Origin: Rhodococcoides fascians NBRC 12155 = LMG 3623
Lineage (GTDB): Bacteria > Actinomycetota > Actinomycetes > Mycobacteriales > Mycobacteriaceae
Length of the DNA: 64,000 nt
Direction: 5' to 3'
Assembly (NCBI RefSeq): GCF_001894785.1
Contig: NZ_BCWW01000002.1
Coordinates: 124,001 to 188,000 of the forward strand
Both the position numbers and the translations under genes were made by a program. This document shows positions 11,596 to 56,672 of the stretch, piece after piece. The notes under the pieces are model-generated. The model saw only the letters and a program-made list of their open reading frames with translations, did no database searches and was not told where the DNA came from. How positions within the stretch are numbered: position 1 is the first letter of the stretch; each line of letters opens with the position of its first letter.

Positions 11596-11610
11596 CGCCA
11601 CCTACACAGC

Positions 11611-11666
11611 CGAACTCGAAGTTATGGACGGAAATCCGAGGAAATCCGTCCATAACTTCGAGTTCG
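11611..11666. terminator. Long perfect hairpin (22-bp stem) between convergent genes
   Basis: Arms 11611-11632 and 11645-11666 are perfectly complementary over 22 bp, with a 12-nt loop (AATCCGAGGAAA). It sits between the ends of the TetR gene and htdX. It could act as a bidirectional terminator, but there is no T-run, and the length and perfection look more like a dispersed palindromic repeat. Confidence 0.6.
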
Positions 11667-11673
11667 AGCCAAC

Positions 11674-21714: not shown

Positions 21715-21779
21715 CGATGGCAATTCCGAACTCGCTGTAACGAGTGGTTGAAGTCTGCATATATTCCGTGTGGCTCCGT

Positions 21780-21810
21780 ACTGCTGCCTGACCCCCGACC
21801 CGGCAGCAGT
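21780..21810 (+). terminator. Hairpin after the PucR gene
   Basis: A 9-bp stem (ACTGCTGCC, 21780-21788, with 21802-21810) is followed by GCGGGGCCTTTTG. This is a plausible intrinsic terminator 66 nt after the regulator stop. The rest of the 228-nt gap before the VanW gene shows nothing I recognise. Confidence 0.6.
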
Positions 21811-21942
21811 GCGGGGCCTTTTGCGTGCGGCGCGTGCGAGGGTCTCAGAACGAGCGGTGCTGTGCGGTTTGCGTAAGCTCGTCCGCGGGGTACGCCGCGC
21901 AGCAGGCCGGAATATGAATCGACGGTCCTGGAAGGGTCGAAT

Positions 21943-24254: not shown

Positions 24255-24833
<579 letters not shown>

Positions 24834-24860
24834 CCGCTGTTCGACTTGGTTCGGCCCCCT

Positions 24861-24982
24861 TCAGCCTGTTCGGCCCGCCCACGGGTTCGGCCCTGTCCGC
24901 CCACCTTCGGCCTGTTCGGTTCGCCCACCGGTTCGGCCCTGTCCGCCCACCTTCGGCTTGTTCGGTTCGCCCTCCGGTTTTC
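24861..24982 (+). repeat. 46-bp direct tandem repeat, about 2.6 copies
   Basis: Units 24861-24906 and 24907-24952 differ at only a few bases. A third, partial unit (24953-24982) runs straight into the first palindromic element. Each unit is built from variants of TTCGG, CTGTTCGG and GTCCGCCCACC. Short open frames here are repetitive and not coding. This is the left part of a 587-nt stretch (24834-25420) without a gene. Confidence 0.75.
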
Positions 24983-25072
24983 GCAAACGCGCGCGCACTT
25001 GCTGAACGCGCGCGAAATAGTAGCCCAATCACGGGCAATTCTGCGCGCATCTGACAAATGCGCGCGCGTTTG
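24982..25072 (+). repeat. Palindromic repeat element, copy A
   Basis: A roughly 91-nt element whose ends are imperfect inverted repeats: it starts CGCAAACGCGCGCGCA and ends TGCGCGCGCGTTTG, with inner arms GAACGCGCGCGA and GCGCGCATCTGACAAA. Three more copies lie at 25195, 26350 and 26554, all in the same orientation. The alternating CG tracts could adopt Z-DNA, and the whole unit could fold into a long hairpin, like a REPIN. Confidence 0.85.
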
Positions 25073-25194
25073 TCAGGTCGGTCTCGTGAAGTCGGCCGGC
25101 GACGCTTTGCCGAGCCGGTTCTCCTGGTGGTGCAGCTGCGCTTCGCTCGGTGCGGCCTCGTTTGCTCGTCCACCTGTTTCGGCTCCGTCTGCTT

Positions 25195-25287
25195 CGCAAA
25201 CGCGCGCGCACGTGCTGAACGCGCGCGACATAGTGGCCGAATAGTCGACAATTCTGCGCGCACCTGACAAATGCGCGCGCGTTTGCG
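25195..25287 (+). repeat. Palindromic repeat element, copy B
   Basis: This copy has the same outer and inner arms as copy A. The centre (CATAGTGGCCGAATAGTCGA) differs from all other copies. It ends 133 nt before the DUF559 gene. Between copies A and B (25073-25194) I see no gene. Confidence 0.85.
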
Positions 25288-25420
25288 GGACTGACAGCTA
25301 GGCGAACTGGTACGCCGGTACCTGTATTCATCCACAAGCCCGGAGTTGTGCACAGTCGTCAGCTTTCGAGCTCGACTCCGTCGACGCATGGCCGAGACTC
25401 GGAGCATGAAGGACGACCGA

Positions 25421-26392
25421 ATGATTCGACGCTCCGAGGCGCTGGCAGACGGGAGCGCCGATCACGAGTTGCGCGCAATGTATGAGCGGGGTGGCTGGGA
25501 GCGTTTTGTGAATGGCGTCTACGTTCCGTCGTCGAGATTGGCCGGGCTGACAGAACAGGAGCGGCACAGACTGTTGATCGATGCGGTTTTGCCGATCTTG
25601 TCCGGTGGTTACGTCGTCAGTCACCGTTCGGCTGCACTGCTGCACGGTTTACCCTTACCCACTGGCGGATTGGACAAGGTTCACGTCACCCGACACCGCC
25701 GCGGCGGCGGTCGTACGAATACGGCTGTGACCGTGCACTGTGCACCGTCCTTATCGAGCGTGACGGTCGACGGTGTCTCGGCGACCTCTCTGGCTCGGAC
25801 AGTGGTCGACCTTGCTCGAACCGAGACGCTGCTGTCTGCGGTAATCGCAGGTGACGTGGCGTTGAAGTGCTGTGACGAGAGTGAGCTCGACGCGGAGTTG
25901 CAGCGGGCTAGGGGCTGGAAAGGTGTGGCGCAGGCGCGACGAGCGGTGAACCTCATGGACGGGCGCAGTGAAAACCCCGGGGAATCGCAGAGTCGAATCA
26001 TATTGCGCGAGGCTGGATTCGACGTCGAGTCTCAGGTGGAGATCCTGGATCCAAGTGGGCGATCGGTGGCACGGATCGATTGGATGGTCAATGGCCTCGT
26101 CGTATGCGAGTTCGACGGTAAAGCCAAGTACACGAAATACTTACGACAGGATGAGAACCCCGGCGACGTGGTGTTCAGGGAGAAGGTACGGGAGGACGCG
26201 GTGCGCGATCTCGGATATCCGGTGGTGCGCTGGACCTGGGCGGACCTGGCGAATCCAGCAGAGTTGGTGGCTCGCGTTGCCCGAGCTGTAGAACGGGCCG
26301 CTGCCTTGCCGCCACCGCGAGGCAGCGTGCGAATTGCATCGAGTCGGGAGCAAACGCGCACGCATTTGCCGAACGCGCGCGAAATCGCCTAA
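25421..26392 (+). CDS. AbiEi-type/DUF559 protein with Vsr-like nuclease fold
   Basis: A 323-residue protein of the actinobacterial AbiEi antitoxin-like family. An N-terminal winged-helix-like segment (ALADGSADHELRAMYERGG) leads to SHRSAALLHGLPLP. The C-terminal DUF559 domain (about 200-300) has the PD-(D/E)xK-like acidic residues ENPGESQSR, IDWMVNG and CEFDGKAKY. The ATG at 25421 has AAGGA seven bases upstream and matches the family's usual N-terminus; ATG 25406 is an alternative. No toxin partner is adjacent. The last 14 or so codons, including the stop, lie inside palindromic repeat copy C, so the repeat has replaced or extended the natural C-terminus. An imperfect CACAA/TTGTG repeat lies about 75 nt upstream. 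Confidence 0.8.
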   Translation: MIRRSEALADGSADHELRAMYERGGWERFVNGVYVPSSRLAGLTEQERHRLLIDAVLPILSGGYVVSHRSAALLHGLPLPTGGLDKVHVTRHRRGGGRTNTAVTVHCAPSLSSVTVDGVSATSLARTVVDLARTETLLSAVIAGDVALKCCDESELDAELQRARGWKGVAQARRAVNLMDGRSENPGESQSRIILREAGFDVESQVEILDPSGRSVARIDWMVNGLVVCEFDGKAKYTKYLRQDENPGDVVFREKVREDAVRDLGYPVVRWTWADLANPAELVARVARAVERAAALPPPRGSVRIASSREQTRTHLPNAREIA

Positions 26393-26440
26393 CTATTCCG
26401 CAGAATTCGCGCGCATCTGACAAACGCGCGCGCGTTTGCG
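26350..26440 (+). repeat. Palindromic repeat element, copy C (overlaps the DUF559 stop)
   Basis: This copy has the same arms, with centre ATCGCCTAACTATTCCGCAG. It supplies the final codons and TAA stop (26390-26392) of the DUF559 gene. Copies C and D share nearly the same centre, so they are closer to each other than to A and B. Confidence 0.85.
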
Positions 26441-26553
26441 CCGGGGCCGGGGGAAGCGTCGCCAGGGCTAGGGGGAAGCCTTTACCGGGGGAGCGTCTAC
26501 GTGGGTCGGGTTCGGTGTCCGTGGCGCGTGAAGTCCATCGGCCCCGGCTAGGT

Positions 26554-26645
26554 CGCAAACGCGCGCGCATTTGCCGAACGCGCGCGAAATCGCCTAAGTA
26601 TTCCGCAGAATTCGCGCGCATCTGACAAACGCGCGCGCGTTTGCG
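26554..26645 (+). repeat. Palindromic repeat element, copy D
   Basis: This copy is almost identical to copy C (centre ATCGCCTAAGTATTCCGCAG). The left 41 nt and the reverse complement of the right 41 nt agree at roughly 34 positions. Most mismatches would be G-U pairs in an RNA copied to match the minus strand. The 347-nt gene-free stretch 26393-26739 holds copy D, most of copy C and the fadE5 terminator; the 113 nt between C and D show nothing recognisable. Confidence 0.85.
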
Positions 26646-26739: not shown

Positions 26740-28575
26740 TCAGAATGCTGCTTCGTCCAGTTCCATGATGTCGTTGTCGATGTTGGTGAGGATGGCGCGC
26801 GTGGCGGTGAGCTGCGGCAGGATGTTCTTGGCGAAGAACGAGGCCACTGCGATCTTGCCCTCGTAGAACGCCTTGTCCTTGCCCTCTGCGCCGTTGTCCA
26901 GTGCGGCGATGGCGATTTCGGACTGACGCAGCAGCAGCCAGCCGATGAGCAGGTCGCCGAAGCCCATGAGGAAGCGCACCGATGCCAGGCCGACCTTGTA
27001 CAGCTCGGTGGGCTGGTCCTGTGCGCCCATGAGGTGCTGGGTCATCGAGGTGACGATGGCCTGGACGTCCTCGAGGGCGGTGGCGAGCAGTGCGCGCTCG
27101 GCCTTGAGGCGTCCGTTGCCTGCTTCGCTGTCGATGAACGACTTGATCTGTCCGGCAACGTGAGCCAGGGCTACGCCGCGGTCGCGGGCGATCTTGCGGA
27201 AGAAGAAGTCCTGCGCCTGGATGGCGGTGGTGCCCTCGTACAGCGAGTCGATCTTGGCGTCGCGGATGTACTGCTCGACGGGGTAGTCCTGCAGGAAGCC
27301 GGAGCCACCGAAGGTCTGCAGCGATTCGGCGAGCACCTGGTAGGCGATCTCCGAGCCGACGCCCTTGACGATGGGCAGCAGCAGGTCGTTGACGCGGTAG
27401 GCGATGTCTTCGTCGGCGTCCGAGACCTGCTTGGCGGTGATCGGGTCCTGGTGTGCGGCGGTGTAGAGGTACACCGCGCGCAGGCCCTCGGAGTACGCCT
27501 TTTGCATCATGAGGCTGCGGCGCACGTCGGGGTGGTGCGTGATGGTGACGCGCGGTGCGGTCTTGTCGGTCATCTGCGTCAGGTCGGCGCCCTGGACGCG
27601 TTCCTTGGCGTACTCGAGTGCGTTGAGGTAGCCGGTGGAGAGGGTGCCGATTGCCTTGGTGCCGACCATCATTCGAGCGTGCTCGATGACGTCGAACATC
27701 TGCGCGATGCCCTTGTGGACCTCGCCGACGAGCCAGCCCTTGGCGGGGACGCCGTGGCCACCGAAGGTGAGCTCACAGGTGGCGGAGGCCTTGAGGCCCA
27801 TCTTGTGCTCGACGCCGGTGACGAAGGCGCCGTTGCGCTCTCCCAGTTCACCCTTCTCGAAGTCGAAGAGGATGGACGGAACGAAGAACAGGCTCAGGCC
27901 CTTGGTGCCGGGTCCGGCACCTTCGGGGCGGGCGAGCACGAGGTGGAAGATGTTCTCGAAGAGGTCGTCGGAGACGGCCGAGGTGATGAAGCGCTTGACG
28001 CCCTCGATGTGCCAGGAGCCGTCGTCCTGCTTGATCGCCTTGGTGCGTCCTGCGCCGACGTCGGATCCGGCGTCGGGCTCGGTGAGGACCATGGTGGCAC
28101 CCCACTGGCGCTCGACGGCGACCTTGGCCCATTCCTTCTGCTCGTCGGTTCCGTTGTGGTACAGGATGTTTGCGAAGCCGGGGCCTGCGGAGTACATGAA
28201 GGCGGCGGGCTGCGAGCCGAGGAGCATCTCGTTGATGCCCCACAAGAGGTTGCGAGGCGCTGCCATGCCGCCGACCTCTTCGTCGAGGCCGACACGCCAC
28301 CACTCACCGTCGGCGAGGGCCTTGTAGGACTTTTTGAAGGATTCGGGCAGCTTCAGGCTGTGGGTCTCGGGATCGAAGACCGGGGGGTTGCGGTCGGCGT
28401 CCGCGAAGGATTCCGCCAGGGGGCCCTCGGCCAGGCGTACTACCTCGCGCAGCATGTCACGGGCTACTTCACCGTCCATGTCGCCGAAGTTGTCGCCCTC
28501 GAGGGTCTCGTCGAGTCCGAACAGCTCGAAGAGATTGAATTCGAGGTCCCGGAGGTTGCTCTTGTAATGGCCCAT
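26740..28575 (-). CDS. fadE5: Acyl-CoA dehydrogenase FadE5
   Basis: A 611-residue acyl-CoA dehydrogenase, exactly the length of mycobacterial FadE5. Domains run in the usual order: N-terminal helical domain (to about 160), beta domain with [13 protein letters not shown] (FAD/substrate loop), and C-terminal helical domain with [20 protein letters not shown] and [16 protein letters not shown]. The Glu in YEGTTAIQ is the expected catalytic base position. FadE5 acts on a broad range of acyl-CoA chain lengths in the first step of beta-oxidation. Candidate operators of the same type as at fabG4/fadA2 lie just upstream. It is convergent with fadA2 but 11.4 kb away. Confidence 0.95.
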
Positions 28576-56488: not shown

Positions 56489-56625
56489 GCCTGTTGCCGC
56501 GTATCGGCTCCTCGGTTTCGGATTTCTGACTCCGATCGGCGTCGGGTTTCCGAATGTGGGGAGCTGATGTGTGGGTGGGGGCGTGGATGTGTGGGTGGGG
56601 GTTGCAATCTACGCCCCGGTTCGGA

Positions 56626-56672
56626 ATTTACGCCCCATGCGGGGGGCGTGGATTGCTGCTGGGGGCGTAAAT
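56626..56672. repeat. Inverted repeat within a G-rich intergenic stretch
   Basis: ATTTACGCCCC (56626-56636) and its perfect complement (56662-56672) flank GGGGGG-rich sequence. Just upstream, GGATGTGTGGGTGGGGG occurs twice in a row (about 56563-56600). The 241-nt gap between the dehydratase and the next gene is otherwise empty. The runs of G could form a G-quadruplex; it might also terminate the dehydratase gene. Confidence 0.5.

Follow-up and report, generated by a model that had tools for sequence, protein, structure and literature searches.

The stretch of DNA analyzed here (the window, 64,000 nucleotides of Rhodococcoides fascians NBRC 12155 = LMG 3623) carries a gene for a probable DNA-cutting protein and, around it, four copies of an imperfect palindrome, called here copies A to D of the R1 family (Table 1). 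The copies measure 90-91 bp each, lie two on each side of this single gene and share one orientation; their canonical strand is the minus strand, which is antisense to this gene. The gene is one member of a large Actinomycetota gene family in which an AbiEi-type module is fused to a Vsr/EDxHD-type nuclease domain, and whose members appear in the databases as "type IV toxin-antitoxin AbiEi domain protein", "very-short-patch-repair endonuclease" or "hypothetical protein". As a rule, members of this family sit between two copies of an imperfect palindrome of their own, and the palindrome is specific to the gene lineage. An earlier note on this DNA, made from its letters alone, had described the gene as AbiEi/DUF559 (Vsr-like) in nature, which the protein supports: its N-terminal part is AbiEi-like in sequence and fold, the closest fold to its C-terminal domain is that of the EDxHD homing endonuclease I-Bth0305I, and the putative nuclease residues are invariant. 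A sequence search of the PDB with the window protein gave no match, and no homologs of the protein were found in phages at 1e-5. No toxin gene (AbiEii nucleotidyltransferase) lies beside the nuclease gene, its neighbors encoding a flavin reductase and an acyl-CoA dehydrogenase.

Within the pairs, identity is 89% on the left (A and B) and 98% on the right (C and D). Copy C covers the last codons and the stop codon of the nuclease gene, and all 12 close orthologs (window gene included) have an element that overlaps their 3' end. The end motif, with at most one mismatch, has 13 matches in the window where 0.63 would be expected, and every one of them falls within copies A-D. Folded as RNA, all four copies give long hairpins from either strand (z of -4.6 to -7.9 on the minus strand, 0 of 200 shuffles being as stable), and copies A and D fold as hairpins as DNA too. 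In an alignment of 18 copies from the same genome the ends are strongly conserved and the centers variable, most copies ending in a perfect palindrome on one side and in a near-perfect one of 18 nt on the other. Coordinates, end-motif excess and hairpin folds thus confirm the four palindromic copies in one orientation around one gene that the earlier note had reported, and the REPIN-like layout it proposed is supported. Between the flavin reductase gene and copy A, window positions 24839-24976 hold three tandem copies of a 46-nt repeat.

Bracketing by palindromes extends well beyond this locus. We compared the 500-nt upstream and downstream flanks of 141 homologous loci, 72 of them from Rhodococcus and 69 from other genera of the order, taking as the gene the part aligned to the window protein, a test that misses remoter brackets; the loci were chosen for spread from longer, capped match lists rather than sampled at random, and are not independent (12 are orthologs of one gene). 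At 112 of the 141 loci (54 of the 72 in the genus, 58 of the 69 in other genera) the flanks match each other with a score above the 99th percentile (32) of 1656 cross-genus pairings, and at 47 and 50 loci, respectively, with a score above the control maximum (40). Of 800 random intervals of ~1 kb, 17 exceeded 32 and 4 exceeded 40, and the acyl-CoA dehydrogenase gene passed the threshold in none of 29. An earlier version of the test had weaker controls, with a cross-locus 95th percentile of 45.6 and a maximum of 95 (because related loci share palindromes), and a 95th percentile of 31 and one value of 379 among 300 random intervals; in that version the G006 locus L138 (G numbers designate genomes, L numbers loci) scored 22, yet it has elements on both sides. 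Bracketing together with a folding z below -2 was found at 96 of the 141 loci on at least one side and at 73 on both, z-scores here being based on mononucleotide shuffles, and some matches may be tandem or low-complexity repeats. The bracketing palindromes have a median length of about 70 bp, and among the 112 bracketed loci the direct-sense match is the stronger in 77 and the inverted one in 33. Homologs without a match to the R1 model described below have hairpins of quite different sequence on both sides, nearly the same within a locus. By tblastn we also found three plasmid-borne homologs, with bracket scores of 35, 149 and 100, the last in Collinsella, which belongs to another class. The homolog in Collinsella aerofaciens (L353, NZ_OY725717.1), outside the class Actinomycetes, has what appear to be two tandem hairpins on each side.

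The palindromes diverge along with the genes that they bracket. Of the 112 bracketed loci, 101 had segments of 40 nt or more and entered the comparison, and 4773 of their 5050 pairs gave alignments of 180 residues or more; the palindromes of two loci were counted as matching when their score exceeded 40. They match in 77 of 80 pairs at a protein identity of at least 75%, in 14 of 41 at 60-75%, in 7 of 122 at 50-60% and in none of the 4530 below 50% (Spearman correlation 0.29), and paralogs within the window's own genome have unlike palindromes. The link between nuclease and repeats raised by the earlier note is therefore upheld by the matching flanks at 112 of 141 loci and by a palindrome type that tracks the gene type. 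Dispersed copies follow the same pattern in three of four divergent species: judged by eye, those in G052, G003 and G010 have the end sequence of the local brackets and not of the window's, while the ends of the one inspected in G020 are unlike the local brackets. At L045 (G020, on a 25-kb contig) a dispersed copy of R1 type is found in a genome that has brackets of a different type of its own, and this copy may have come from a relative; at L048 (G052) four palindromes of the G052 type form a dense local cluster within ~1.3 kb. Dispersed copies of other palindrome families are few in the ~2 Mb sampled: the first family has five sites, of which four correspond to a single orthologous place in four genomes, plus two weak sites, and the second has one site.

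Table 1. Palindromes, nuclease gene and boundary genes in the window
Feature	Position	Strand	Remarks
Flavin reductase-like gene, left boundary of cassette site	24303-24833	+	Pfam PF01613; synteny
Palindromic element copy A (R1 family)	24982-25072	-	103.6 bits; copy in model
Palindromic element copy B	25195-25285	-	95.7 bits; copy in model
AbiEi-like DNA-binding module + Vsr/EDxHD-like nuclease gene, 328 aa	25406-26392	+	start judged by relatives' length; in-frame start at 25388 gives 334 aa
Palindromic element copy C	26349-26438	-	90.0 bits; copy in model; overlaps gene 3' end and stop codon
Palindromic element copy D	26554-26643	-	96.2 bits; copy in model
Acyl-CoA dehydrogenase gene, right boundary of cassette site	26740-28575	-	Pfam; orthologs in 37/37 genus genomes
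Dispersed copy of another palindrome family; bracketed gene seen in G021 (L217)	11605-11670	+	79.5 bits; in model
Dispersed copy of palindrome bracketing paralog at G000:C3:601971	56498-56568	-	85 bits; in model
Weak match to palindrome bracketing G021 homolog (L216)	56607-56672	-	E 1e-05, 74% identity

A covariance model built from the 18 own-genome copies found R1 elements (E <= 1e-4) in 20 of 37 genus genomes, the counts per genome including both strands and being confounded with phylogeny. The window's own genome (G000) has 54 matches, and the 12 genomes with the gene or an ortholog of at least 75% identity have 34-91 each; among the other 25, G052 has 42, G009 32, G020 16, G024 8, G006 3, G003 and G010 2 each and G017 1, with none in 17. 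By blastn, copy A has 32 matches in its own genome, many of them the two strands of one copy. The named hosts of a 30-base core of the element are Rhodococcus strains (10 stretches), and blastn of the R1 element gave no match in either the phage or the plasmid collection. From 262 both-strand model matches we selected 91 copies in four genomes, orthologs included, of which 83 lie outside genes and 8 overlap one according to a simple home-made gene caller. Only 2 of 81 dispersed copies lie between divergent genes, compared with 89 such gaps among the 390 that measure 150 nt or more. Some occupy orthologous places in three or four species, and in four places that could be aligned no clean target-site duplication was seen, the flanks having diverged. 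In three species (L198, L186, L168) a pair of elements follows an apparent tRNA end and terminator, the two copies looking more alike within a species than between species. The earlier note had held that copies away from DUF559 genes would count against a tie with the nuclease, and in part this is what we find, most dispersed copies being at other loci; the link is one of bracketing and co-divergence, not of adjacency of every copy.

R1 loci also show a moderate concentration towards the replication origin. With loci typed by hand, one per cluster, the origin half of the arms has 18 of the 24 G021 loci (p 0.023) and 14 of the 17 G016 loci (p 0.013), and none on contig C1 of either genome lies past 0.74 of an arm; the exact end motif is absent from twenty sampled 20-kb stretches of the G021 terminus half. 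In G023, where the main contig is not closed, the loci on that contig are mostly no more than 1.6 Mb from dnaA, with one at a distance of 3.6 Mb, and further loci are found on other contigs. Chromosome sites linked to the terminus or polarized by the replication fork were considered and rejected, as dnaA lies in the element-rich half and the orientation of the copies is not cleanly split by arm.

The gene adjoins the dehydrogenase gene in 18 of 30 genus loci read, and in two more (G043 and G022) by coordinates. In 6 of those 18 loci it is a 50-54% relative with other palindromes, and lineages with only 45-54% protein identity share the same chromosomal site. Eight sites without the gene were read, and lone palindromes are present at five of them. 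Those of G049 and G017 are partly like the brackets of G047 (78-82%) and G006 (84-86%), the G017 one folding poorly; that of G004, beside the dehydrogenase gene and separated from the flavin reductase gene by another gene, agrees with a G047 bracket in 69 of 72 positions; and those of G009 and G024 belong to another family. The gene-less sites of G044, G001 and G051 show no palindrome besides the terminator-like hairpin of the dehydrogenase gene. In the dehydrogenase tree, G004 is sister to G047 and G017 to G006 (both 100/100), and G009 to G042 (98/91); site states were labeled by hand, those of G050, G045, G046 and G019 resting on short distances. Loss of the gene by recombination between repeats and gain at a lone palindrome both fit these states. 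Further upstream in the window, positions 21767-21823 match the mycobacterial F6 small RNA (Rfam RF01791, 64.1 bits).

Bracketing, co-divergence, the dispersal of R1, invariant putative nuclease residues and the existence of gene-bearing and solo alleles are established by these comparisons. We consider them probably the marks of a partnership between nuclease and palindrome, similar in outline to that of RAYT and REPIN and built on an unrelated enzyme, in which binding, cutting, copying or spreading, and benefit are steps that we infer. The protein would bind its own palindrome (probably in dimeric form and via the AbiEi part) and would nick or cut this DNA, perhaps in an extruded or single-stranded state at a replication fork. 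Repair might then copy one palindrome onto another, which would keep the bracketing copies alike, homogenize the copies of the genome and occasionally seed new ones, and recombination between the two bracketing copies would remove the gene and leave a solo palindrome. AbiEi proteins are repressors of their own genes that bind two inverted repeats of 23 bp (PMC7319586), I-Bth0305I dimerizes on a target of nearly 60 bp (PMC3943268), and a precedent for an enzyme maintained in single distinct copies next to dispersed palindromes is RAYT-REPIN (PMC3116915, PMC8049555). A fusion of AbiEi and EDxHD domains amid co-diverging palindromes of ~60-90 bp is most simply read as one that would bind them and cut or nick them.

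Several observations weigh against this partnership. G009 and G024 keep R1 copies without a close ortholog of the gene, and operators of a repressor would co-diverge with it too. The earlier note had pointed to a G-U asymmetry hinting at structured RNA; the asymmetry is real for the R1 family (for copy A, -60.1 kcal/mol on the minus strand versus -49.4 on the plus strand, via G-U pairs) but not general among the brackets of the gene family, where 102 of 202 hairpins are more stable antisense and 86 sense, and where a lean to antisense in the genus (59 versus 35, many of them orthologs) is reversed in other genera (43 versus 51). Nor does the R1 family show covariation beyond shuffles in 150 aligned matches, so that its ends appear to be kept as sequence and not as a freely changing stem. 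The hint of a structured RNA is thus not supported, and neither is a Vsr-like recognition of G-T wobbles in the hairpin, which we also considered.

Among other explanations, the palindromes could be autoregulatory operators, bound as duplex by the AbiEi-type module to control its own gene, with dispersed copies as further sites. The AbiEi-like sequence and fold of the window protein speak for this, as does the negative autoregulation of AbiEi through paired 23-bp inverted repeats (PMC7319586). AbiEi and Rv2827c act in this way at their own promoters, and the missing covariation is what sequence-specific duplex binding predicts. We nevertheless regard operators as unlikely, given the copy at the 3' end of the gene, over the stop codon in all 12 close orthologs, the invariance of the putative nuclease residues, and the scarcity of dispersed copies between divergent genes, unlike promoter operators. 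Somewhat more doubtful still is a homing cassette, whose nuclease would cut a gene-less site with a single palindrome, repair then inserting the cassette so that a palindrome ends up on both sides. The I-Bth0305I-like fold, the gene-bearing and solo states of one site in sister species, and the use of this site by lineages of only 45-54% protein identity all agree with homing, but a close relative of the gene occurs at only one site per genome among the matches listed, despite many palindrome copies, and the flanking palindromes are intact, which would leave both the occupied allele and the dispersed copies open to cutting.

Ordinary gene-end hairpins (terminators or stabilizers of mRNA), duplicated by chance or local recombination and functionally unrelated to the protein, would agree with the rarity of copies between divergent genes, but are very improbable: the region has about as many terminator-like sites as chance would give (2, versus 1.9 in shuffles, one being a five-pair stem inside copy A and the other that of the dehydrogenase gene), control intervals and genes show bracketing rarely or not at all, and palindrome type tracks gene type. 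We give hardly any credit to a structured RNA made from the minus strand and acting in trans, for which the stronger minus-strand fold of copy A and the antisense lean in the genus could be invoked, against the overall counts, the reversal in other genera, the lack of covariation and the absence of an Rfam match at gathering score at copies A-D. Membership among RAYT-driven REPINs was rejected because no Y1/RAYT transposase (Y1_Tnp, PF01797) was found in the window's own genome (0 matches in G000); the domain is present in 1 of 24 other genomes of the genus searched.

Beyond this locus, and more tentatively than for the partnership itself, AbiEi-guided Vsr/EDxHD-type nucleases may be an unrecognized class, selfish or domesticated, that recognizes, cuts and copies its own palindromes. 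Such a class might maintain lineage-specific repeat populations across Actinomycetota without HUH transposases, in parallel to RAYT-REPIN. If so, a second system of the REPIN-RAYT layout would exist on an unrelated nuclease, the arrangement would have arisen more than once, and a common, unexplained gene family would gain a concrete substrate. Most tested genes are flanked on either side by their predicted DNA target, so that direct tests of recognition are possible for many natural pairs of enzyme and target.

In the titles and abstract openings of open-licence papers on AbiEi/DUF559, REPIN/RAYT and Rhodococcus palindromes we found no such arrangement. Known systems share parts of it. Miniature inverted-repeat transposable elements are likewise short and dispersed with inverted ends; here, no target-site duplication was seen in the few sites aligned, with diverged flanks, and no parent transposase was identified. 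The AbiE type IV toxin-antitoxin systems share the AbiEi-type fold, here in the N-terminal part, and inverted repeats beside the gene, but here there is no adjoining toxin gene, an extra nuclease domain is present, and repeats also lie downstream and dispersed. With Vsr and EDxHD homing endonucleases such as I-Bth0305I the likeness is in the fold of the catalytic domain, which here is fused to an AbiEi-type module in a gene standing free between two conserved genes and flanked by intact palindromes. In the REPIN-RAYT system, a textbook-like case of a bacterial enzyme living with a dispersed palindrome population for millions of years (PMC8049555), the enzyme is a Y1 HUH transposase instead of an AbiEi and Vsr/EDxHD-like protein. 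The GTAG/CGTC tag at the foot of the palindrome, described as a REPIN-RAYT feature (PMC3733652), was not seen by eye in our 18 copies with 40-nt flanks, and here palindromes stand both upstream and downstream of the gene, in direct sense more often than in inverted. Shared with REPIN-RAYT are short, dispersed, extragenic hairpin palindromes that adjoin the enzyme gene and diverge with it, and, as that system is described (PMC3116915, PMC8049555, PMC8266576), a vertically kept gene for a DNA-processing enzyme, of distinct types per genome, with palindromes beside the gene and dispersed extragenically that co-evolve with the enzyme.
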